From Thermoanaerobaculia bacterium (GTDB lineage: Bacteria > Acidobacteriota > Thermoanaerobaculia > Multivoradales > J023): a stretch of 64,000 nt of DNA. The stretch is taken from NCBI GenBank assembly GCA_030431255.1, contig JAUIJL010000011.1:186001-250000 (forward strand). Direction: 5' to 3'. Under the pieces are notes generated by a model. It was given only the letters and a program-made list of their open reading frames with translations. It did not search any database and was not told the DNA's origin. Numbering within the stretch: the stretch's first letter is position 1; each line of letters starts with the position of its first letter. A program made the position numbers and the translations under genes. Positions 37,737-60,590 of this stretch are shown here, piece by piece.

Positions 37737-37769
37737 CCCGGAGTCGAATCGGCTCCGGGCTTTCGGTTT
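37737..37769 (+). terminator. Rho-independent terminator
   Basis: The stem CCCGGAG (37737-37743) / CTCCGGG (37753-37759) with a 9-base loop is followed by CTTTCGGTTTT. It lies 27 bases after the stop of the secreted propeller-like gene. Confidence 0.85.
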
Positions 37770-38143: not shown

Positions 38144-38179
38144 TGAGCCGGTTTTGTGACGCTTTCCGCGTGAGGAGCA
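38144..38179 (+). promoter_or_regulatory. Shared 36-bp promoter-like motif, copy A
   Basis: TGAGCCGGTTTT at the left and CGCGTGAGGA at the right, 11 bases apart, aligned without gaps to copies at 42614 and 44631. It lies 50 bases upstream of the secreted-protein gene that leads the ECF sigma factor/kinase operon. The layout (two conserved blocks, fixed spacing, 40-55 bases to the start codon) is that of an alternative-sigma promoter. Confidence 0.75.
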
Positions 38180-38228
38180 CATGATGTGTTTAGGTGAACT
38201 TTTCACGACGGAAAATGAGAGTACCGAC

Positions 38229-39038
38229 ATGAAGCAAAAAATACTCGTCCTCACCGCGATCCTTTTCCTGGGACCGCTGGTTTCCATCGGCTCGGCCACG
38301 CAGGGTGGACCGGGGCCGTCTTCTCTTGTTCTCGAGCTGGTGCCGGGCAGCCGAGTGGCTCTCGAAGCCGGGCTTTGTGCCGGCAGTGACGGTGGCGGGC
38401 CGAAGCTCGATCAAATCATGCTCGACGATGTCGATACCGGCGGCGGCAACGGCAAAGCCCATTGGATCTTCGAGCTCGGGGAGACGGGGGGTGGCAGCGA
38501 ATACACCTTGCGGCCGGTGCAGGGTTGTTCCGACGGCGGGCAGGTCTACACCCAATGCGGTGTTTGGAATGTGAAAATTTCGCTGGATGTGCCGTCGGGT
38601 CCCACCGGCCTGATGGTGCTGCATCCAGATCCGGCCGGCTCTGGCGGGATGGCTCGGGGCGAGGTGGAGATTCCGCTGAATATCGAATTCACGGAGGCCG
38701 GCTCCGGCATCGTCAAGCAGGTCGAGCATGACTTCGTCTATTACATCCGCGCCCCTTGGGCGACGACCCGCGGGCCAGACGCCTGGGAGTCCTCGGCGCC
38801 TTTCCCCATCGACACCGACTGCGACGGGGTGCCCGACGAGCAGGCGCCGCCGACCACGGGGGCCCCAGCGTTGGGATGGATGGAGGATGCGACGTCGAGC
38901 GAGCCGATCCGCGGCCTGATGTGCGGAGCGGGTGAGGAGGTCGGGGGATGGCTGTGCGGTAGCCCGGTGGTCGAGCCGCCGGACGACGCCGGCGATGGGG
39001 GTGACCTTGGAGATCCCGGTGAAGGAGGCATGCCATGA
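38229..39038 (+). CDS. Secreted protein of unknown function leading the ECF/kinase operon
   Basis: A 269-residue protein with a signal peptide (MKQKILVLTAILFLGPLVSIGSA). The mature part is beta-rich and Gly/Asp-rich, with four or more Cys (LCAGSDGG, GCSDGG, QCGVW, MCGAGEE, LCGSPV) and an acidic tail. An in-frame ATG at 38181 sits two bases from the promoter-like motif and is therefore unlikely to be used. The 3' end overlaps the sigma factor start (ATGA), so both are translated together. Upstream position in an ECF operon could make it a sensor or first target of the sigma factor. Confidence 0.75.
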   Translation: MKQKILVLTAILFLGPLVSIGSATQGGPGPSSLVLELVPGSRVALEAGLCAGSDGGGPKLDQIMLDDVDTGGGNGKAHWIFELGETGGGSEYTLRPVQGCSDGGQVYTQCGVWNVKISLDVPSGPTGLMVLHPDPAGSGGMARGEVEIPLNIEFTEAGSGIVKQVEHDFVYYIRAPWATTRGPDAWESSAPFPIDTDCDGVPDEQAPPTTGAPALGWMEDATSSEPIRGLMCGAGEEVGGWLCGSPVVEPPDDAGDGGDLGDPGEGGMP

Positions 39039-39796
39039 CCGCAACGGAAGTCCATCCCTTTCCGTCGATTCGCGGGCACGCTATACTGCTACAGCATAGA
39101 GCGCCCGATATGAACGACTTCCCTTTGCCTTCAAACACAGACGTGGGTTCTTCTGACCCGGTGGCTTCTGACCCGGTAGCTACCGACGCTGCCTCGTCGG
39201 CAGCCGTGGCCGAAACCCTGCCGCCCGACCAAGTGACCGAGCTGTTGGTGGCCTGGAAGAGCGGACGGAACGAGGCGTTGGAGACGCTTATGCAGACGGT
39301 GTATCGAGAGCTGAGAGCCCTGGCCGGCGGCATGTTCCGGTCCGAGTCCAGCCGACACACCCTGCAACCCACGGCGTTGGTCCACGAGGCCTTTCTCCGG
39401 CTGGTGGACCAACAGCGGATCGAGTGGAAATCCCGAGCGCAATTCTTCGCCGTGGCCGGCTGTTTGATGCGACGCATCCTGGTGGACCACGCTCGGGCCA
39501 GGGTTTCGAGCAAGCGCGGAGGTGGCGCGGTGCGCGTGACCCTCTCTGATTCGCCGGTGGAGGGAGATCTCGGCTTGGAGCAGCTGATTCAGCTGAGCGA
39601 CGCCCTCGACGAGCTGGCGAGCTTCGACGAGCAGCAGGCGCGAGTGGTGGAGTCTCGTTATTTCGCGGGCATGACCATCGAGGAAACCGCCGACGCGCTC
39701 GGCATCTCGCCCGCCACCGTCAAACGCGAGTGGACGTGCGCGCGGGCCTTCTTGCTCGGCAAAATGAACGGGCTGGGCAACATGAGCGGGCAGTAG
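39035..39796 (+). CDS. ECF-type RNA polymerase sigma factor
   Basis: A 253-residue sigma-70 family protein of the subfamily common beside Ser/Thr kinases. Sigma-2 region about 68-150 (VTELLVAWKSGRNEALETL ... ALVHEAFLRLVD ... FFAVAGCLMRRILVDHAR) and sigma-4 about 185-245 (ARVVESRYFAGMTIEETADALGISPATVKREW, helix-turn-helix). The start at 39035 has GGAGG six bases upstream and overlaps the preceding gene (ATGA); an internal ATG at 39110 has a poor site. The N-terminal 60 residues are low-complexity Ser/Asp/Ala. No anti-sigma gene is nearby; the kinase 24 bases downstream probably controls activity by phosphorylation. A candidate target promoter recurs at 38144, 42614 and 44631. Confidence 0.94.
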   Translation: MTATEVHPFPSIRGHAILLQHRAPDMNDFPLPSNTDVGSSDPVASDPVATDAASSAAVAETLPPDQVTELLVAWKSGRNEALETLMQTVYRELRALAGGMFRSESSRHTLQPTALVHEAFLRLVDQQRIEWKSRAQFFAVAGCLMRRILVDHARARVSSKRGGGAVRVTLSDSPVEGDLGLEQLIQLSDALDELASFDEQQARVVESRYFAGMTIEETADALGISPATVKREWTCARAFLLGKMNGLGNMSGQ

Positions 39797-39820
39797 ACCG
39801 AGGGAGGGCGTCGAGGCTCA

Positions 39821-42592
39821 GTGGATCCAAAGGTTTGGCGCCGTCTCAAAGACGATTTCTTGAAGGCTATTGAGCTCGACGAGGACGGCCTCGTCGAGCT
39901 TTTGCGTGCCTACGATCCCGAGCTGCGCCCGAAGCTCGAAGAGATGCTGCGCGGCCACGGCATCGAGTCGAGCTTCCTCGATCGTCCGTTGGCGGCCCCC
40001 GAGGCCGAGGAGCCGCCGCCTCCGCCGGAGCGCATCGGCCCCTATCGACTGGAACGGCTCTTAGGTCGCGGCGGCATGGGCGAGGTCTTTCTCGGCCGCC
40101 GGGAGGACGGAGATTTCCAGCAGCGGGTGGCGATCAAAATGCTGCGCGGCTGGTTTCACGCCGAGGTCTCGACCCGTCGATTCCGGGTGGAGCGTCAGAT
40201 CCTGGCGCGGTTGGAGCATCCCAATATTGCCCGGTTGTTGGACGGCGGCAGCACCGACGACGGCCGCATGTACTTGATCATGGAGCACGTGGACGGCGTG
40301 CCCATCGATCAATATTGCGACCGTCATCGGCTTTCCGTGGCGCAGCGCCTTCGCCTCTTCGAGAAGGTGTGCTCGGCGGTGGCTTTGGCCCATCGAAGCC
40401 TGGTGGTGCACCGGGATCTGAAGCCGGCCAACATCTTGGTGACGGAGGACGGCGAGCCCAAGCTGCTGGATTTCGGCATCGCCAAGCTGCTGGGTGACGG
40501 GGCGGCCGGCGACCTGGGCGAAGGCCCCGGCATGACCGCCACTTGGCAGCAGCCCATGACCCCCGAATATGCGAGCCCCGAGCAAGTCGCCGGCCGGCCG
40601 ATCACCACCGGCACGGACATCTACGCCCTCGGCGTTTTGCTCTACCGGCTGCTGACCGGGGTGTCGCCCTACCCGGAGACCGACGGCGACGCGGCGCAGG
40701 TGCTGAAGGCGGTCCGTCGGGGGGAGATCATCCGTCCGAGCAGCCGGGTGGTGGCCGAGGGTGGCGACTCTGAGACCCAGCGGGCTCGGGATCGGCGGAC
40801 CGAGCCCAAGCTGTTGGCCCGTCGGTTGCGGGGGGATCTCGACGTCTTGATCGCCACCGCCCTGCACCGGGATCCCGAGCGGCGTTATCCGTCGGTCGAG
40901 CGCTTGGCGGAGGACGTGCGGCGCCATTTGGACGGCCTGCCCATCAGCGCCCGTCCCGACACGCCGGCTTATCGCTTGAGCAAATTTCTTCGCCGCCAAC
41001 CGTTGATCGCTGCCGCGGCGCTGTTGGTGGTGCTCTTCGCGGCGGGCATGACCGTGCTTTCGGTGCAGCTGGCTCGGCAGCGGGATCGTTTGCAACGGGA
41101 GCAGGCGAAGTCCGCGGAAGTGGTGGACTTTGCCGTCGGCCTCTTCGAGGTCACCGATCCCGATGAATCACGGGGTCGCACGGTCACTGCCCTCGACCTG
41201 CTCGAACGGGGCGCCGAGCAAGCGCGATCGGAGCTCGCCGGCCAGGGGGATCTCCAGGCCATCATGCTCGATTTATTGGGTGAGATGCACCTCAACCTCG
41301 GTCTATTCGACGACGCCCGACCGTTGCTCACGGAAGCTCTCGAGCTGGCGGAGAAGCATTTTGGTCCCGACTCGGAGCAGGTGGCTCAAACCTTGGACAA
41401 TCTGGCCGCGGTCTACCGCCACCGGGGGGAGCTGACGGCCGCCGAAGCCCTCTACCAGCGAGCCCTGGAGATCCGTCGTCGGCTGCACGGCGACGCTGAC
41501 TTTCGCCTGGCGGAAAGTCTCAACAACCTGGGGGTGTTGCGCTGGCGTCGGCAGGATCTCGAAGGAGCGCGATCGCTGATCGCCGAGGCGTTGGAGGTGA
41601 CGCGCGCGGCTCGCGGGGGCGACGACCCCGAGGTGGCGAGCGCGCTCAACAACCTGGCGGCGCTTTACCAAGCGAGCGGGGATCCAGCGGATCTCGATCC
41701 GGCGGTGTCGCTGCTCGAGCAGGCGATCCGGATCAACCGACGCACCGCCGGGGCGGACGCTCCGAGCCTCGGTGTCCAGCTTCAGAATCTCGGTCAGCTG
41801 CGCCGCCTACAAGGACATCTGAACCTTGCGGAGTCGGCGATTCGGGAAGCCCTGTCGATTCTGGAGCCGGCCCTCGGCGAAGCCCATCCCCAAACCCGCT
41901 CCGCGCGCGCCGGATTGGCCGGGGTGCTGCGCGCCGACGCCCGCCTGGGCGCGGCGTTGGGGCAGCTCGAAAAGGCCGTAGCGGCCACCCAGCCGGCGGA
42001 GGGTGAGGCGGTGCATCCGCGGGAGGTCACCCTGCGCAACTCCCTGGTGCAGGTGTTGGTGGATTTCGGTCGTCCCGAAGCGGCCGAAAGGGTGCTGGCG
42101 GAAGCGGCAAGCCTTCAGCCGCGATTCGGAGCCGAAGACATCGCCATTGCGCTGGAGCACAATCGGGCCCGTCTCGACGCCGCCGAAGGGCGCGCGGCGG
42201 ACGCCATCCAGCGTCTCGAAGGCCTGCGGAGCCATGTCGACAGCGAGCGCCGCCGGGTGGGACTCGGCTTGGATCTGGCGTCGATTCTGCTGCGAGCAGA
42301 CCGAGCCCAGGAGGCTGCGGCCGTGCTCGACGAGGTGGACCGGCTGCAAGAGAAGCTGCTGCCGGCGAATCACCCGGATCGCGTGCACCCGCTGTTGCTG
42401 CGCGCCGCGGTCGAGCGTCGGGCCGGACGATCCGCGGACCTACCGCTCGCGGAGGCCAGACGGCTCGCAGAGGCCAGACGGCTCGCCTCCCGTGCCGCCG
42501 GCAAGGGCAGCTGCCTAGCAGCGGCGACCGCCGCGTGGCCGGAGCGGCCGAGCCTTCCGGGATGCGGATTCCCGGCGGCCCTCCACCCTTGA
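39821..42592 (+). CDS. Transmembrane Ser/Thr protein kinase with tetratricopeptide repeats
   Basis: A 923-residue Hanks-type kinase. The kinase domain (about 73-360) has G-loop LGRGGMGEVFLG, catalytic VVHRDLKPANILV and LLDFGIAK. A transmembrane helix (about 395-415; LIAAAALLVVLFAAGMTVL) is followed by an extracytoplasmic tetratricopeptide solenoid (about 440-890; LNNLGVLRWRRQDLEGA, LNNLAALYQ). The start is GTG with GAGG nearby. The last 45 residues after a duplicated EARRLAEARRLA (18-base duplication at 42452-42487) do not look like repeat sequence. It lies 24 bases after the ECF gene, so the pair forms an ECF/kinase signalling unit in which the repeats sense an external signal. Confidence 0.95.
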   Translation: MDPKVWRRLKDDFLKAIELDEDGLVELLRAYDPELRPKLEEMLRGHGIESSFLDRPLAAPEAEEPPPPPERIGPYRLERLLGRGGMGEVFLGRREDGDFQQRVAIKMLRGWFHAEVSTRRFRVERQILARLEHPNIARLLDGGSTDDGRMYLIMEHVDGVPIDQYCDRHRLSVAQRLRLFEKVCSAVALAHRSLVVHRDLKPANILVTEDGEPKLLDFGIAKLLGDGAAGDLGEGPGMTATWQQPMTPEYASPEQVAGRPITTGTDIYALGVLLYRLLTGVSPYPETDGDAAQVLKAVRRGEIIRPSSRVVAEGGDSETQRARDRRTEPKLLARRLRGDLDVLIATALHRDPERRYPSVERLAEDVRRHLDGLPISARPDTPAYRLSKFLRRQPLIAAAALLVVLFAAGMTVLSVQLARQRDRLQREQAKSAEVVDFAVGLFEVTDPDESRGRTVTALDLLERGAEQARSELAGQGDLQAIMLDLLGEMHLNLGLFDDARPLLTEALELAEKHFGPDSEQVAQTLDNLAAVYRHRGELTAAEALYQRALEIRRRLHGDADFRLAESLNNLGVLRWRRQDLEGARSLIAEALEVTRAARGGDDPEVASALNNLAALYQASGDPADLDPAVSLLEQAIRINRRTAGADAPSLGVQLQNLGQLRRLQGHLNLAESAIREALSILEPALGEAHPQTRSARAGLAGVLRADARLGAALGQLEKAVAATQPAEGEAVHPREVTLRNSLVQVLVDFGRPEAAERVLAEAASLQPRFGAEDIAIALEHNRARLDAAEGRAADAIQRLEGLRSHVDSERRRVGLGLDLASILLRADRAQEAAAVLDEVDRLQEKLLPANHPDRVHPLLLRAAVERRAGRSADLPLAEARRLAEARRLASRAAGKGSCLAAATAAWPERPSLPGCGFPAALHP

Positions 42593-42613
42593 CGGAATAT
42601 ATTTCGAATTTTC

Positions 42614-42649
42614 TGAGCCGGTTTTTCGAGCTTCTCCGCGTGAGGGGTG
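42614..42649 (+). promoter_or_regulatory. Shared 36-bp promoter-like motif, copy B
   Basis: TGAGCCGGTTTTTCGA at the left and CCGCGTGAGG at the right, in the same register as copies A and C. It lies 55 bases before the secreted-protein gene at 42704 and just after the kinase stop. Confidence 0.75.
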
Positions 42650-42703
42650 AACGTCGACCCACGACGTCGAATCCAAACACACCCCTTGAAGGAGCAACTG
42701 ATC

Positions 42704-44401
42704 ATGCAAGCTATTTCCAACCCCCGTGCGCCCCGTGGACGCCTCGTTTTACGCACGCTCGGCGTCGCCGCGGTGGCCGCGACCCTGGCCCTGTCTTCGG
42801 CCGGTGCCGCTCAGGAAGCCGACCCCGACGTGCCGAAGGCCACCGACTTGGGAGGTCTGCTCGAAGCTTGGCAAGGCGCCACGCGGCCGACCGAGCTCAG
42901 CCTGGCGGAGCACGTCTCCGAGCACTACCCGGAATGGCTCAGCGCCTGGACGGATCAGGCGGCCGGCTCTCTCGGTGGCCCGTTGGTGGCGGTCTACGAG
43001 GACCTGCGACCGGAGTGGCTCGAAGCTTTCCGATCCGACTATTTGGAAAGCTCGGACGATGGGGTTGCCGAAGGTGACGACGGGTCGTTCGTCGACTATC
43101 TGGTCCACTATCAGCCTGAGTGGCTCGCCCAGGTCGAGCGGGATCTGACCGAGCTCGGTGAAGGCCAAGATCTGGAGACCTTCATCGGAAAGAACGACCC
43201 CGAGGTCATCACCGAGCTGGAGATGCGCAACGACTCCTTTTACGCCGAGCCTATCGGTTTCATCGAGTGGGTGACCACCTACACCAACGACCCGGTGGCT
43301 CTCGGCCAAGCCCATTCCTACGTGAACGACATTCTCGACGGCGACGGCTCTACGGGCAGCAGCTCCACGGGCGGTGCCTCGACCTGCACCTGTCGGATCA
43401 TCGCGTCGGGGGTCGAGCTGCCCGGAAGCCAAGTGGACGTTCATAATCCAAACTACGAGGATAAGCGCAACAACGGCACCTGGAAGGAGTGGCGTCATGG
43501 TTATTTGACCCAGCGCGGAGCCGCCCAACGGCTCGGCACCAGCCGCTTCATCCGGAACACTGACAACCAGCTATCCATGAACAATGTGGCTTCGTCGGCC
43601 ACCATCTCCTTCCGTATGTCATGCACCCGTCCATCCGGTAACGACGTCGTGCAATGCGATCAAGGGATCGGCTGCTCGGCGGATGTCAAAGTGAAATCGA
43701 AATTCAGCTCCGCGTTTGAGGTCTACAACGACGCGACTCGCGCTTATCCGTGGCATTCGATTTCCAGCTCCGCGACGGCCGCGAATGTGGGAGTTTTGAA
43801 GATGAATCCGGGCTCGGCCAATGAGAGCGTGTTGTTCGAGAAAGGTCTCGCTCTGGAGCGTACGTACAACACCTCAGCGAGCGCGGGCAGCGTTTTGGCC
43901 GGAATCAAGTCCGCCTACAACCTTTATCAGACCATCGACAACGCCGGCGGCGATGTGGGTGCCATCCTTACCAACATCGACGATCAGGACGTTCAGAACA
44001 TTCTCGGCATAGCGACTGTCGACGGTTCTCGCGGTACCAGCAACCAGAACCTTCACGTCCAATACAGCAACGCAGGTGCCGCTCCGTTCGTTATCTCCAA
44101 CGGTGAAGAAGCGGTCTTCGAGATCAGCTCCATCGCCAAAGCCGAGTCCATCGGCAACGGCAAGACCAGCGACGGCCGGACCCGCTCCTCCAACAGCTAC
44201 TTCTTGGTGGGTGTGGCCAACAACTTCAGCTGCACTGGTGCGGCACCGCCCAAAACCACCGCCGCATGGACCTACAATTCGGTTTGGCAGGCTCCCTTCA
44301 GCGCCGCCAGCGCTCGTGGCGCGGCCGAGGGATTCATCTACAGCCAAACCGGCACGCAAGTCAGCGCCCCGGGTTACGCCGGGCATTGGACGGCCCCCTG
44401 A
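42704..44401 (+). CDS. Secreted Cys-containing protein, family paralogous to the one at 58.9 kb
   Basis: A 565-residue protein with a long signal peptide (helix LVLRTLGVAAVAATLALSSAGAA). Residues about 40-190 hold helical repeats with a recurring (P)EWL motif (YPEWLSAW, RPEWLEAF, QPEWLAQV). A Ser/Gly linker leads to a CTCR element, and the C-terminal half is beta-rich with a Cys pair region (MSCTRPSGNDVVQCDQGIGC) and a segment KVKSKFSSAFEVY. The same layout recurs in the protein at 58,947-60,590. No known fold assigned. AGGAG lies upstream of ATG 42704. It is preceded by promoter-like copy B and followed by a terminator, so it is its own transcript. Confidence 0.8.
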   Translation: MQAISNPRAPRGRLVLRTLGVAAVAATLALSSAGAAQEADPDVPKATDLGGLLEAWQGATRPTELSLAEHVSEHYPEWLSAWTDQAAGSLGGPLVAVYEDLRPEWLEAFRSDYLESSDDGVAEGDDGSFVDYLVHYQPEWLAQVERDLTELGEGQDLETFIGKNDPEVITELEMRNDSFYAEPIGFIEWVTTYTNDPVALGQAHSYVNDILDGDGSTGSSSTGGASTCTCRIIASGVELPGSQVDVHNPNYEDKRNNGTWKEWRHGYLTQRGAAQRLGTSRFIRNTDNQLSMNNVASSATISFRMSCTRPSGNDVVQCDQGIGCSADVKVKSKFSSAFEVYNDATRAYPWHSISSSATAANVGVLKMNPGSANESVLFEKGLALERTYNTSASAGSVLAGIKSAYNLYQTIDNAGGDVGAILTNIDDQDVQNILGIATVDGSRGTSNQNLHVQYSNAGAAPFVISNGEEAVFEISSIAKAESIGNGKTSDGRTRSSNSYFLVGVANNFSCTGAAPPKTTAAWTYNSVWQAPFSAASARGAAEGFIYSQTGTQVSAPGYAGHWTAP

Positions 44402-44423
44402 CCCGCTCGCACCTCGGATCTGA

Positions 44424-44475
44424 GGCCGGCGGCGAGTTTTACCCCTTGGCTCGCCGTCGGCCCGGTCTTTTCTCT
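44424..44475 (+). terminator. Rho-independent terminator
   Basis: A 13-base stem (44424-44436 with 44450-44462, one G-T pair) and a 13-base loop are followed by GGTCTTTTCTCTT. It lies 22 bases after the secreted-protein stop. Confidence 0.8.
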
Positions 44476-44630
44476 TCGTTTCAATCGTTTGTCTTCGCTT
44501 CAATCGTTGCCCATTGCGAAAAACCCTTCTGTGTGAGCATCCGAGAAAAACCTTTCGACACTCGCGATCCCCGGGTTGTTTCGATCTTCGAGCCCTGGAT
44601 CGCCGGATTTTCTCTTTTTGTGCTCTGGGT

Positions 44631-44666
44631 TGAGCCGGTTTTTCGACCGTTTACGCGTGGGGAACG
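44631..44666 (+). promoter_or_regulatory. Shared 36-bp promoter-like motif, copy C
   Basis: TGAGCCGGTTTTTCGACC at the left and ACGCGTGGGGA at the right, in the same register as copies A and B. It lies 40 bases before the secreted-protein gene at 44706. Confidence 0.75.
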
Positions 44667-44705: not shown

Positions 44706-47486
44706 ATGCACATTCCATCCACGCCAACGAGAAGCATCCGTCAGCAGGTGTTTCGACTCACCGTCCTCTTCGCCCTCTTCTTCTGCCTGGTCATCGGCGC
44801 CTCGCGGCTGCCCGCTGCGCCGTTGCAAGGCGGCTGTGCCGGCTCCAACGGCACCTTGCCCATCGGCAACCCGGGGGAAGCCGGGTACGCCTGGAAGGCC
44901 GAGCTGAGGAATTGGCTCGCCGGTTTGACGATTTCTCAGCTCTCGTACCAAGGCCAACCCACCCGCATCAAGCCGCCCTACGAGGAATACAGCTGGTACC
45001 CGAGCTGGGTGAGCTCCGGGGATTGCGAGAATACTTACACCAACATGTCCTCACCGCCGACGCTGAACGCCGCGGAACGGACCTTCATCGAGCAGTACTA
45101 CACCATGTGGCTGACCGAGCGTCGGTCCGGTTGGTACGACGAGGCCCTGCGCATCGATCCTCGACATTTCACCCTGGCCGATATGGAGAATCAGACGACC
45201 TGCCAGGTGGATACTCCTCAATTCCAATGGGACGGAAACCCTTCCTGGATCTCCATGTGGGAGTATCCCGGCAATCCGTTCTTCAGTGATTCAATCGTCC
45301 GCCCGGCGCTCAAGAAACGGCTCGGCAGCTGGCTGGCACTTCAGCTGATCATGCTCGAATGGTCGGCTTGGGACGAAGCGAGTCAGGCCATCCCCTTGGC
45401 GACGGCGCCGGTCACCCACGCCGGTCGCAACTACCATCATCCGAATCCGGTGGTGATCGGCGGCGTCGGCGGCAACAACGACATGGGCATCGTTTTGACG
45501 GGTCTGGCGTCGGCTTACCAGGCCGTTCAAAACGAGCCTTGGTTCCAAGGCAACCTGGCCGCGGCCTTCGAAAAAGGGCTCTTGACCCAGGCCGAGCGTC
45601 TCCACATCGCGGGTTATTGGTCCCAGCACGGCAATCGGGCGATTCCCATGGTCAGCGGTCTACAGCTGGTCTACGAAGCGACCGGCAATACGGACGCGGA
45701 GGTTTGGTATTTGGACGCCATGGAGCACGTGTTTACGCCGAGCACGTTTTTCCCCGCGGGTTATATGACCCAAGATTTTCGCTACGACCCGGGTTACAGC
45801 CAGATGGATCCCCACGCGGCGGTGCGGGTTTTGATGAACCATTCGGGCTCGACCACGGCGTCGGCGCTGGTGGACCTCTACGATGCGGCCTATCGGATGC
45901 ACGATCTGCGGGCCCATATGGTCTTGGGCGACGTCACTGGTTTGATGTTCGGCCCGTCGGCCATGAGCACGCGGACCGGTGGTGGCGCCAACAGCAACGG
46001 CAACGAGCCGACCGCTGATCCCATGCGCTTGATGACCCAGCTCTACGCCGCCGAGCTGGAGCTGCCGTTCGCCGATCCCGGGCTGCGCGATTGGCCGGAT
46101 TTCGGGCAATACGCCATCACCGGCTACCCGCCCTACACCCGAACCGTCGATCCGTTGGACCCGAGCCGGGATCTGCATGTGGTGCTGGCCTGCCGCTTCG
46201 CGCCATTGCATCAGGTGGGTGGTCAGAATTGGTCGAATTCGGCGAGCGCGGCGGTGCCGTGGCCCGATCAGCCCGGTCCGCGGGGTTATAACCGCCCGTG
46301 GACCCTGGTCTTCGATCACGTGGTGCCGTCGACGGGCAGCCTGATCGAGAAGCGGGCGCAGCGGGTGAATAACGACCCCACGGCCAATCTGCTGCCCTAC
46401 GAGCTGGAGGGTCCGTATCTTCGGTCGTTCGAGGATGAGATCGTCTTCGCCAAATTCGGCGGCTCCGGTGTCTATGAAGAGCGAGGATGGAATATTTGTG
46501 TCGATCACGACGACTACCACGGCGATGACAGCGATCTGGCGGCGATTCTGCACCTCGGACCGGTGGTCGGCAACAACAGCGCGTTGCCTTACGGCTACGG
46601 TGGTGGTCAGCTGGCCGGTTTGTGGTCGCCGGAGACCGGTGTGGGTTGGCTGAATCGTCGAGTCGGCCGCAACAATACCGTCACCGACGATTGGGCCGAA
46701 TGGCGCAGCCTGCCGATCCACGCGGCGACGGTGCTCACCTCGTCGGGCGTCTGGACGTCGAGCGCCCGGATCATCGATCCCATGCCGACGGTGGTGCTCA
46801 CCGACGAGGATCCGACCTTCGACGTCGGCACCGAGTGGCTGGATTCAGGTGGCGGGTCGATCGCCCCGGTGCCGGAAAGCGACGCGGTGGCCGTCTTCGC
46901 CGAAGTCAGCGGCAACTTGCCCACCGACGGTCACCAAATCGCCGCCGGCGGCACCGTCGTTCCGGCGCTCAACGGGGCGACGCCCATCCACTACCGGCGT
47001 CGATTCGTGGTCGAGCCGGAGCTGGTGCGAGTGCGCACGGATATCGATCCGGTGGTGTCGGGGACCGCCAACGCGGATGCCCTGACGGAGGCGTGGGAGA
47101 CCCTGCCGCTCTTCGTTGCCGAGACGTCCTTCGGCACCTCGTGCCCGACGAGCGTCACCTGGCCCGTGCCCCAAATCGAGGTGCTCGACGCCTTCGGGGT
47201 GGTCACCAACATCACCACGAGCACCAGCTCGATCTCCAACGTCCGGCAAGTGAAGGTGAAGCGCAACGACGGCACCATGACGATCGTCTTCCGGGAACCG
47301 CAAACCGTTCGCCTGAGCGACGTCTTCGGCAACACCGCGACCACGGTGAGCCGTCGATTCCTGCTGCAAAATCTGATGGTGGATCTGCGTCCCCAGGGCG
47401 CGGGCTCCACCTTCCAAATGCCGCCGGTGGCGCTCGAGTACTACATCTACTTTGGGCCGGTGAATCCCGGTTTGGACGATTGGTAG
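44706..47486 (+). CDS. Large secreted protein, possibly a polysaccharide-lyase-like fold
   Basis: A 926-residue exported protein (signal-peptide helix VFRLTVLFALFFCLVIGASRLPAAP). Residues about 40-450 are helical and rich in W, Y and H (WYDEALRIDPRHF, YLDAMEHVFTPS, DPHAAVRVLMNH), as in alpha/alpha toroid domains. The C-terminal half is beta-rich (HVVLACRFAPLH, WTLVFDHVVPS, HYRRRFVVEPELV). A toroid plus beta-sandwich order resembles heparinase/alginate-lyase type polysaccharide lyases, but I cannot name catalytic residues and the match is tentative. AGGAGG five bases before 44706 fixes the start. It is preceded by promoter-like copy C and followed by a strong terminator. Confidence 0.75.
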   Translation: MHIPSTPTRSIRQQVFRLTVLFALFFCLVIGASRLPAAPLQGGCAGSNGTLPIGNPGEAGYAWKAELRNWLAGLTISQLSYQGQPTRIKPPYEEYSWYPSWVSSGDCENTYTNMSSPPTLNAAERTFIEQYYTMWLTERRSGWYDEALRIDPRHFTLADMENQTTCQVDTPQFQWDGNPSWISMWEYPGNPFFSDSIVRPALKKRLGSWLALQLIMLEWSAWDEASQAIPLATAPVTHAGRNYHHPNPVVIGGVGGNNDMGIVLTGLASAYQAVQNEPWFQGNLAAAFEKGLLTQAERLHIAGYWSQHGNRAIPMVSGLQLVYEATGNTDAEVWYLDAMEHVFTPSTFFPAGYMTQDFRYDPGYSQMDPHAAVRVLMNHSGSTTASALVDLYDAAYRMHDLRAHMVLGDVTGLMFGPSAMSTRTGGGANSNGNEPTADPMRLMTQLYAAELELPFADPGLRDWPDFGQYAITGYPPYTRTVDPLDPSRDLHVVLACRFAPLHQVGGQNWSNSASAAVPWPDQPGPRGYNRPWTLVFDHVVPSTGSLIEKRAQRVNNDPTANLLPYELEGPYLRSFEDEIVFAKFGGSGVYEERGWNICVDHDDYHGDDSDLAAILHLGPVVGNNSALPYGYGGGQLAGLWSPETGVGWLNRRVGRNNTVTDDWAEWRSLPIHAATVLTSSGVWTSSARIIDPMPTVVLTDEDPTFDVGTEWLDSGGGSIAPVPESDAVAVFAEVSGNLPTDGHQIAAGGTVVPALNGATPIHYRRRFVVEPELVRVRTDIDPVVSGTANADALTEAWETLPLFVAETSFGTSCPTSVTWPVPQIEVLDAFGVVTNITTSTSSISNVRQVKVKRNDGTMTIVFREPQTVRLSDVFGNTATTVSRRFLLQNLMVDLRPQGAGSTFQMPPVALEYYIYFGPVNPGLDDW

Positions 47487-47567: not shown

Positions 47568-47597
47568 AGCCCCGGTTCGCCGGGGCTCTTTTTTCTT
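47568..47597 (+). terminator. Rho-independent terminator
   Basis: A perfect 8-base stem AGCCCCGG / CCGGGGCT with the stable tetraloop TTCG is followed by CTTTTTTCTT. It ends the transcript of the 926-residue secreted protein. Confidence 0.93.
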
Positions 47598-52419: not shown

Positions 52420-53025
52420 ATGCCCGACTCCAGCTCGGATCTGCTCTCCACCGAATCGTCCGAAACCCGTGGTGAGGTCACCCGCCTGCTGCGGGCGTGG
52501 AGCGACGGGGACGACGACTCGCGGGACCGGTTGATGGCCCTGCTCTACGACGAGCTTCGACGTCTGGCCGGGGCGTATATGCGCCGCCACGGAAATATTA
52601 CGCTTCAAGCCACGGCGGTGGTGAATGAAGCGTATTTGCGGTTGGTGGATTTGGACATCGCCTGGAACGGACGACCCCACTTTTTCGCCGTGGCCTCGAC
52701 CTTGATGCGACGCATTTTGGTGGACGAGGCTCGGCGTCGAAACGCCAAGAAACGCGGAGGCGAGGCGGAGAGGGTGGGCCTCGACGATGCCGATTTCGAC
52801 CGCTTGACCGCCGCTCGCCAAGATCGTCAATTGATCGCCTTGGACGACGCCTTGAAAGCGTTGGCGGAAACGGATCCCCGCAAGGCACGGGCCGTGGAGC
52901 TGCGTTTTTTCGGCGGGCTCACCTTGGCGGAGACCGCCGAGGTCATGGGCCTCGCCAGTGCCACGGTGGAGCGGGACCTCAAAGCCGCCCGCGCTTGGCT
53001 CGCCACCGAGATCGCCGAGCCTTAG
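52420..53025 (+). CDS. ECF-type RNA polymerase sigma factor, second copy
   Basis: A 201-residue sigma factor of the same subfamily as the one at 39035. Sigma-2 (VTRLLRAWSDGDDDSRDRL ... AVVNEAYLRLVD ... FFAVASTLMRRILVDEAR) and sigma-4 (VELRFFGGLTLAETAEVMGLASATVERDL). AGAGGA lies seven bases before ATG 52420; an upstream in-frame start at 52366 is less likely. It is followed after 19 bases by a Ser/Thr kinase, repeating the gene order at 39-42.6 kb. No copy of the shared 36-bp motif was found nearby, so its target promoter probably differs. Confidence 0.94.
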   Translation: MPDSSSDLLSTESSETRGEVTRLLRAWSDGDDDSRDRLMALLYDELRRLAGAYMRRHGNITLQATAVVNEAYLRLVDLDIAWNGRPHFFAVASTLMRRILVDEARRRNAKKRGGEAERVGLDDADFDRLTAARQDRQLIALDDALKALAETDPRKARAVELRFFGGLTLAETAEVMGLASATVERDLKAARAWLATEIAEP

Positions 53026-58946: not shown

Positions 58947-60590
58947 ATGTCTAACAGCAAATCCAAAACCTATCGTTCTACCGCTATCCGCGCCTCTTGG
59001 ATCCTACTGACCCTCGCCTTGCTCACCCTGCTCGGGCCGGCCTCGGCCCTGGCCGGGGAGGAAGAAGCGGGCTCGGTCTACGTCATCGACTCGGCTTTGA
59101 TGGACGCTCTGCAAGCTTGGTCCGAAAATCCGACGAGCCTGGAGCAGATCGCCCTCGAGTCCGCGCCGGAAGCCGTGGCCCTCTACGGCGAGACCGTGGG
59201 CGATCTCTATTCGGGCGGTCTCGCGGCGCATTTTGCCGAGAGGTTTCCGGCGGCTGAGCTGCTCTATTTGGAGCTCGGCGGCACCGAAGATGACGGCTCC
59301 GAGGGCAACGCGCAGCGTGCCGTGTTTTTGATGAGCCACCGGCCCGAGGACTACCGGGCCTGGCAGGCGGAGAAGCTGCTGAAGGTCAAAGGGCTTCGTT
59401 TCACCGACTTTGTCGAAGACGAGCATCCCGAGCTGCTCGATGTATGGGCGGAAGCGGAAGCGTCCACCCCAGCGGCCCAAGGGGAAAGCCTGCTCGACTT
59501 TGTGGCCGGCCAGGAAGATCCGGAGCTCTATGCCTCGGCATCTTCCCTCTTGGACGCGGTGGCCATACCGATCGACACCGAGTGCGGCTGCTTCACCACG
59601 GTCGCCTTCCCGGGCAACCCCAGCAGCCGGCAGGTCATTTACGACGAGCATTGGGTCCGCAACGGCTTTCACCGGGAAGAGGTGGACTACCGGGTGGATG
59701 CCGAAGGCAGCGCCGCCAATGTGGACTACTACCGCTTGGCCCGTCGACACCCCACGGCGGAGCATCGGGTGACCCGAGCCCTGCGTCAAGACATGCGGGT
59801 GCGCATGCAATGTGTTCGCGGCGGTGTGGCCGGTGGCCGGCCGTGCCAAGGGGGCGGATGCCAGGCGGAGCTGGTCACGCGCATCGAGTATGGAAGCCGG
59901 GTCTATGAGCGCACCGCGTCGGGCGGTTGGTTCAATCACGGCGCTAAGACCCTTACCTCCAACGTGGCGAATCTTCAGCATTCCGTGGGCTCGGCCGGAC
60001 CGTCGGAGCTGTTCAACAAATCCGTCGGTGTTTCCGGCAACACTCGTTTGGCTTGGAATTCCCAAGCGGTGAGCACCCTGCTGCAGAGTGTTTTCGGGGT
60101 GATCAATCTGATTGTCGGAGATCAAGGCTCGGCCTTGGCCGGCATCCTCGAAGGCAATTTGATCGACGATACCGTCACCAGCATCGCCGCTCTGATCGAA
60201 CGGGAGGGTAGCCCGGGAAGCCATGCCGTGGACATGCTCGTCAGCCACGACACCACGCGCGGCATCTCCCATGAGCTGCGCGCCAATCAAACCCATGTCT
60301 TCGAGATGACCGCCTATGCCGAGGTCTACGGCGAAGGGCACGGCGATAAAAGCGAAAGTTGGGGCGAGGTGGATTCCGCCTACGGCTTTGCCGCCGTGGT
60401 CCGCGACTACCAATGCCCCTTCCCGACCCAAGCCCCCAACCCGGGCGCCTATTGGTCTTGGGCCTCGACCCCCAAAGCGCCCATCTCCGCCACGACCCTA
60501 GCCGACAACATTGCCGATTGGATCCAGGTGGAGCTGGGCGTGCGCCCCACCAACACCAGCGTTCAGGAGGGTGAGCTGATCCTGCCTTGA
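58947..60590 (+). CDS. Secreted Cys-containing protein, paralogue of the one at 42.7 kb
   Basis: A 547-residue protein with a signal peptide (helix ILLTLALLTLLGPASALAG). It shares its layout with the 565-residue protein at 42704: an N-terminal helical repeat half (FPAAELLYLEL, RPEDYRAWQ, HPELLDVWAE), a CGC element (TECGCFTT), a Cys-bounded segment (MQCVRGGVAGGRPCQGGGC) followed by a strand (VTRIEYGSRVYE), and a C-terminal beta-rich half (ISHELRANQTHVFEMTAYAEVYG). Direct identity is low but the order matches. Function unknown. GGAGA lies upstream of the start. No strong copy of the shared promoter-like motif precedes it. Confidence 0.78.
   Translation: MSNSKSKTYRSTAIRASWILLTLALLTLLGPASALAGEEEAGSVYVIDSALMDALQAWSENPTSLEQIALESAPEAVALYGETVGDLYSGGLAAHFAERFPAAELLYLELGGTEDDGSEGNAQRAVFLMSHRPEDYRAWQAEKLLKVKGLRFTDFVEDEHPELLDVWAEAEASTPAAQGESLLDFVAGQEDPELYASASSLLDAVAIPIDTECGCFTTVAFPGNPSSRQVIYDEHWVRNGFHREEVDYRVDAEGSAANVDYYRLARRHPTAEHRVTRALRQDMRVRMQCVRGGVAGGRPCQGGGCQAELVTRIEYGSRVYERTASGGWFNHGAKTLTSNVANLQHSVGSAGPSELFNKSVGVSGNTRLAWNSQAVSTLLQSVFGVINLIVGDQGSALAGILEGNLIDDTVTSIAALIEREGSPGSHAVDMLVSHDTTRGISHELRANQTHVFEMTAYAEVYGEGHGDKSESWGEVDSAYGFAAVVRDYQCPFPTQAPNPGAYWSWASTPKAPISATTLADNIADWIQVELGVRPTNTSVQEGELILP

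Follow-up and report, generated by a model that had tools for sequence, protein, structure and literature searches.

A candidate ECF sigma promoter motif upstream of three secreted-protein units in a Thermoanaerobaculia genome

A stretch of 64,000 nucleotides from the genome of a Thermoanaerobaculia bacterium (contig JAUIJL010000011.1, positions 186,001 to 250,000 of the forward strand), indicated below as the window, contains three transcription units, each preceded by a copy of the same two-block motif; the first of these units encodes an extracytoplasmic function (ECF) sigma factor, starting at 39035, and a Ser/Thr protein kinase. Judging from sequence features, the three sites are very probably an on-switch, read by the cluster's own sigma factor. 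An ECF-kinase regulon is a kind of system already known: the present one is of value for offering a concrete promoter code in an ECF family that is large and has been little studied.

The motif in the window

The motif, TGAGCCGGTTTT-N11-CGCGTGRGG, is confirmed to be present without gaps at 38144, 42614 and 44631, as the earlier note had read, and is always on the + strand. In pairwise comparisons of the 32-bp blocks, 26-27 positions are identical; in the 50-base flanks on either side, identity is at chance level (11-17 out of 50). With up to three mismatches allowed, the three sites are the only ones in the window, and 100 dinucleotide shuffles contain none. At the same threshold they are also the only ones, all on the + strand, in the whole genome (10,192,622 bases), where the reversed control pattern scores 0. 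The motif is far beyond chance. For other species, no exact copy of the full motif is present in the genome_contigs collection, from which the window's own genome was possibly left out.

All three full-motif sites lie outside genes, each upstream of a gene. The distance to the start codon, put at 40-55 bases in the earlier note, is roughly right if a 36-bp footprint is assumed; measured from where the 32-bp core ends, it is 53, 58 and 43 bases:

38144..38175, + strand: promoter-like site 1; -35 TGAGCC(GGTTTT), -10 CGCGT(GAGG), 17 bases between TGAGCC and CGCGT; 53 bases before ATG 38229
42614..42645, + strand: promoter-like site 2, directly past the kinase stop codon; 58 bases before ATG 42704
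44631..44662, + strand: promoter-like site 3; 43 bases before ATG 44706

The layout is that of an ECF-type promoter, with two conserved blocks, fixed spacing, a single orientation and a position shortly before start codons. TGAGCC, probably together with GGTTTT, would act as the -35 element; CGCGTGRGG would comprise the -10 element and the bases after it, and includes a CGT, as part of CGCGTG, at all three sites.

The core dyad in the whole genome

A core, TGAGCC-N17-CGCGT, was derived by comparing the sites at related loci; when the spacer is varied, counts peak at 17 bases, both at the ECF loci of this genome and at those of other genera. Genes were predicted with a simple, home-made caller, and genome-wide counts rest on pattern searches. 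The core is found 24 times in the genome, compared to 5 times for the reversed control. In 18 of the 24 cases it is intergenic (P ~4e-11 if sites were randomly placed, non-coding sequence being 14% by this caller), and six sites lie within 5 kb of a gene for an ECF of the TIGR02999 family, to which the 39035 factor belongs. The earlier note would have counted a motif at random positions, including inside genes, as a refutation; the genome-wide search favours its reading, since the sites are not scattered: three full sites, none inside a gene, and a mostly intergenic core.

A refined form, TGAGCCNNWYTYN11CGCGT, occurs 9 times in this genome, with 0 in the control; if one mismatch is allowed, the counts are 20 and 3. 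No refined core is found in the 21 genomes of genus g23, which belongs to the same order and is essentially devoid of such ECFs. The core also emerges from an unbiased dyad count, covering the surroundings of the 60 TIGR02999 ECFs of the genome (608 upstream regions), where it is among the top dyads: it is present in 6 upstream regions, with 0.09 expected, corresponding to five distinct sites, since overlapping loci duplicate one of them. By its placement and its enrichment, the core behaves like a promoter. A general promoter of all TIGR02999 ECFs was considered and rejected: most of the 60 loci do not feature the core, and the locus on contig C43, described below, has another motif.

A fourth site and the predicted regulon

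The core is followed by GRGG at 4 of the 24 sites only, namely the three in the window and one on contig C42 (C42:105010, minus strand), where the sequence continues as CGCGTGAGG and an ATG is found 37 bases downstream. The product of this gene has a typical signal peptide at its N terminus (MLNKHFQRSRPHQPRGRRALSWLARHAALLGCALITLGTGASLAAD), with a PKD domain farther along. The search for the motif before signal-peptide genes, also suggested in the earlier note, has therefore yielded a shorter form of it ahead of one more such gene. Since the proteins at 38229, 42704 and 44706 have N termini resembling Sec signals, four out of four GRGG sites precede genes for secreted proteins; the chance of this is ~0.002 at a background of 21.6%, the fraction of genes passing the crude rule used. 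The same rule supports, in three cases out of three, the description of the downstream genes in the window as coding for secreted proteins.

The three sites would then serve as promoters for RNA polymerase bearing the 39035 factor, in a regulon that is small and mostly local. Transcription from site 1 would produce a secreted protein, the sigma factor and a membrane Ser/Thr kinase, closing a positive feedback loop; sites 2 and 3 would each drive another secreted protein, and the C42 site the secreted PKD-domain protein.

The footprint in related genera

The best matches to the 39035 sigma factor outside this genome are about 54% identical. ECF and kinase genes are accompanied by one core site at G056:C551 (54%), by two at G055:C31, and by two at G086:C55 (52%). 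The ECFs at these loci include the two best outside matches (54% and 52%). Each of these core sites faces another gene, and several of the genes faced clearly encode secreted proteins. Homologs of the 38229 protein are found beside the ECF-kinase loci of G055 and G056, as the target of a core site, and also in G024; at G056:C134, the gene downstream of the core is homologous to the second G055 target.

In G055 and G056, which belong to one genus, all four core sites continue as CGCGTTAC. In G024, which represents a fourth genus, TGAGCC-N17-CGCAA is found both before the 38229 homolog and before the next gene. This variant is not enriched genome-wide in G024 (12 occurrences, compared to 8 for the control), and CGCAA was dropped as a genome-wide class on this ground; only the adjacent pair counts, and it is persuasive because of its placement. 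Between genomes, therefore, the -35 element is kept and the -10 element varies, agreeing within each locus, as would be expected if a sigma factor and its promoters changed in concert.

Which sigma factor reads the sites

The earlier note proposed the motif as the target of the 39035 factor. This is supported as the best explanation, on the grounds of linkage and footprint, and the factor is likely to be the main reader of the GRGG promoters. ECFs featuring the helix S[PK]ATVKR have intergenic core sites nearby in 3 cases out of 4, compared to 0 out of 56 for the others (P 1e-4, post hoc).

Several observations weigh against this assignment. The -35 element, TGAGCC, does not contain the AAC usually found in ECF promoters; AAC at -35 was an early hallmark of these promoters and is no longer a defining rule (PMC8103513). 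The 10.2 Mb genome contains 60 TIGR02999 ECFs above the curated cut-off, plus further ECFs. When sites are counted per locus, their nearness to ECFs is marginal (3 out of 14, P 0.05). About 11 intergenic core sites are far from any TIGR02999 ECF, and many of them continue as TTTC(C): core sites followed by CGCGTTTC(C), so placed, make a second reader probable, that is, another sigma factor probably reads a near-identical box. Finally, in G055, G056 and G086 the core sites do not face the ECF gene.

It may be supposed, accordingly, that the window promoters themselves are ECF-type and have a different main reader, such as the sigma factor responsible for the CGCGTTTCC class, with the 39035 factor as a neighbour or one reader among others. 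Several of the distant core sites precede genes for secreted proteins, and some of the 60 TIGR02999 ECFs have similar -35 helices, both in favour of this possibility. It is nevertheless rather unlikely, because GRGG is restricted to the window and C42 sites, and because sites cluster at the 39035 locus and, in other genera, at the ECF loci homologous to it.

That the block is the operator of a DNA-binding activator or repressor, instead of a -35/-10 promoter, is very improbable. A bipartite protein site might also take the form of such a box, long, conserved and containing GGTTTT and GRGG; yet its orientation to the gene is constant, the 17-base spacing fits sigma geometry, and the box is not palindromic. 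Moreover, the ATG follows it at 37-58 bases, the search for other promoter-like elements found none, and the cluster contains no gene for such a regulator. A repeat, a mobile-element remnant or a chance similarity, which might be suggested by full copies being only three and close together, can be set aside: the unrelated flanks rule against a copied element, duplicated or mobile, all copies are upstream of genes in one orientation, the core is conserved across genera beside related genes, and shuffles and controls gave zero.

The second class of sites, with the core followed by CGCGTTTC(C) or similar, includes C47:15287, C49:68165, C49:74604, C15:107467, C15:247666, C14:12444 and C19:79871; several of them precede genes for large secreted proteins, and no TIGR02999 ECF is nearby. 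Two similar small ECF-sigma-like proteins, encoded at C43:5313-5921 and C15:105392-106027 (DPDDLLQDAFVFF, EPEDLLQDAFVFY), have no Pfam match at E 0.01; one has a TGAGCC-N17-CGCGTTTCC site next to it, the other is a neighbour of the C43 ECF. They are possible members of an unrecognised sigma family.

Autoregulation

The operon containing the ECF gene is itself preceded by the motif, at 38144. ECF factors commonly activate their own promoter, and on this ground the earlier note took the motif as the probable target of the present factor. The autoregulatory layout fits the window locus, and perhaps C29:177284, and is not kept at the G055, G056 and G086 loci. As the sites there do not drive the ECF, feedback would be a feature of the window locus, not of the family.

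The gene cluster

The annotated features of the cluster, apart from the promoter-like sites, are:

37737..37759, + strand: terminator-like hairpin ahead of the cluster
38229..39038, + strand: secreted protein (predicted), 269 aa, first gene of the ECF operon; signal-like N terminus, no Pfam match
39035..39796, + strand: ECF sigma factor, TIGR02999/PF07638; its ATG overlaps the preceding stop (ATGA); QPTA instead of DAED in sigma region 2.2
39821..42592, + strand: Ser/Thr protein kinase with C-terminal TPR repeats (Pkinase 1.9e-43, TPR_12 1.8e-49)
42704..44401, + strand: secreted protein (predicted), 565 aa; signal-like N terminus, paralogs and a homolog known
44706..47486, + strand: large secreted protein (predicted), 926 aa; signal-like N terminus, no Pfam match
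47568..47587, + strand: terminator-like hairpin past the last target gene

Site 1 heads an operon composed of the genes at 38229, 39035 and 39821, and the presence of an ECF factor and a kinase in this first unit, already noticed from the translations, is borne out by profile matches. The ECF scores 208.3 bits with TIGR02999 (curated cut-off 126.15) and 182.3 with PF07638 (21.1). The kinase keeps its catalytic motifs, VAIK, HRDLKPAN and DFG, and has, as read from the translation, a hydrophobic segment between the Pkinase domain and the TPR repeats. No sigma-70-type promoter was found within the cluster region.

The three target proteins of the window have no Pfam match even at E 10. AlphaFold models of target proteins have mean pLDDT (the confidence score of the model) of 51 and 32, too poor for a structure search. 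The 44706 protein has no relative in any of the 148 other genomes searched within the class, and no useful sequence match in PDB. The 42704 protein has two diverged paralogs in the same genome, one in the window, at about 59007, the other on contig C50, and one homolog in G055; no core motif was seen upstream of the paralogs when inspected by eye. A second TIGR02999 ECF is encoded in the window, at about 52474-53013, and the window paralog (59007-60527), which has no upstream core, is located ~6 kb past it.

Kinase and sigma activation

In region 2.2 of the 39035 sigma factor, DAED is replaced by QPTA, which is uncharged and includes a threonine; a QxTA-type stretch with Thr is found in 54 of the 60 TIGR02999 ECFs of the genome. 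The Ser/Thr kinase gene adjoins the ECF gene. In ECF43 factors, an uncharged QTTA with a phosphorylated threonine takes the place of the acidic DAED in region 2.2 (PMC13147305, PMC8999054, PMC8103513). By analogy, the kinase, in response to some signal, probably phosphorylates the sigma factor and so licenses it; we infer this because the acidic DAED, a contact to RNA polymerase, is missing from the sigma factor. In EcfK from X. citri, changing Thr51 to Ala left activity intact, and Thr106 was reported as crucial (PMC13147305): which residue is phosphorylated in the 39035 factor should not, therefore, be assumed.

Other motifs at TIGR02999 loci

On contig C43, a different motif, GGGGAA-N12-CGGACTCC, is present in 11 exact and ~11 one-mismatch copies (about 22-24 in all) within 58 kb (C43:1471-59285); the rest of the genome has a single exact copy. 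This island surrounds a TIGR02999 ECF (C43:5945) and a kinase, and many copies precede genes for large secreted proteins; among the targets examined, C-type lectin, laminin-G, metallopeptidase-like and PLD-like domains are found.

Two codes can thus be listed, TGAGCC/CGCGTGRGG with 4 promoters and GGGGAA/CGGACTCC with ~22-24. It is plausible, given two ECF loci whose private codes differ, that many sigma circuits for extracellular proteins run in parallel in this genome. It may tentatively be proposed, as a possibility not yet the favoured one, that each kinase-linked TIGR02999 ECF has its own -35/-10 code in a near-private circuit, serving mainly a local island of secreted proteins. At most of the 60 TIGR02999 loci, no such motif was found within ~20 kb.

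Two further arrangements were observed. On contig C4 (7777 and 13182, minus strand), upstream regions near an ECF pair share 28 of 34 bases (TGATGGRTTC..CTC.TTTTTT.CGCTCTA). In C50:284716-304715, before 3474, some seven tandem copies of a 15-base repeat, TGAGCCAMAGTCCAC, are found immediately ahead of a gene.

Significance and comparison with known systems

In this class, a single genome may contain dozens of TIGR02999 ECFs, and nothing specific on target promoters of TIGR02999 or Acidobacteriota ECFs was found in the literature searched. The locus offers a concrete candidate for a sigma-promoter pair, with an adjoining kinase, a predicted target list and natural -10 variants in relatives. It also raises the questions of how some 60 paralogous sigma factors avoid cross-talk, and of whether such factors are generally switched on by phosphorylation at the QxTA threonine.

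The promoter-like sites resemble typical autoregulated ECF promoters in having two blocks, a CGT inside the -10 CGCGTG and, at the window locus, an autoregulatory layout; they differ in the -35 TGAGCC, devoid of AAC, and in that autoregulation is not kept in relatives. Planctomycete ECF59, ECF61, ECF62 and ECF217 are similarly predicted to be controlled by phosphorylation through a linked Ser/Thr kinase (PMC8999054); no promoter motif for these groups was found in the literature searched.

The ECF43 systems, EcfP-PknT from Vibrio parahaemolyticus and EcfK-PknS from Xanthomonas citri, share with the 39035 locus an ECF beside a Ser/Thr kinase, and the replacement of DAED by an uncharged stretch containing Thr, QTTA in ECF43 and QPTA in the 39035 factor. 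The latter, in contrast, belongs to the TIGR02999 family, with its 60 copies in the genome, and its kinase has TPR repeats. Targets are also different: type VI secretion system or polymyxin resistance for the ECF43 systems, predicted to be local secreted proteins for the 39035 factor.

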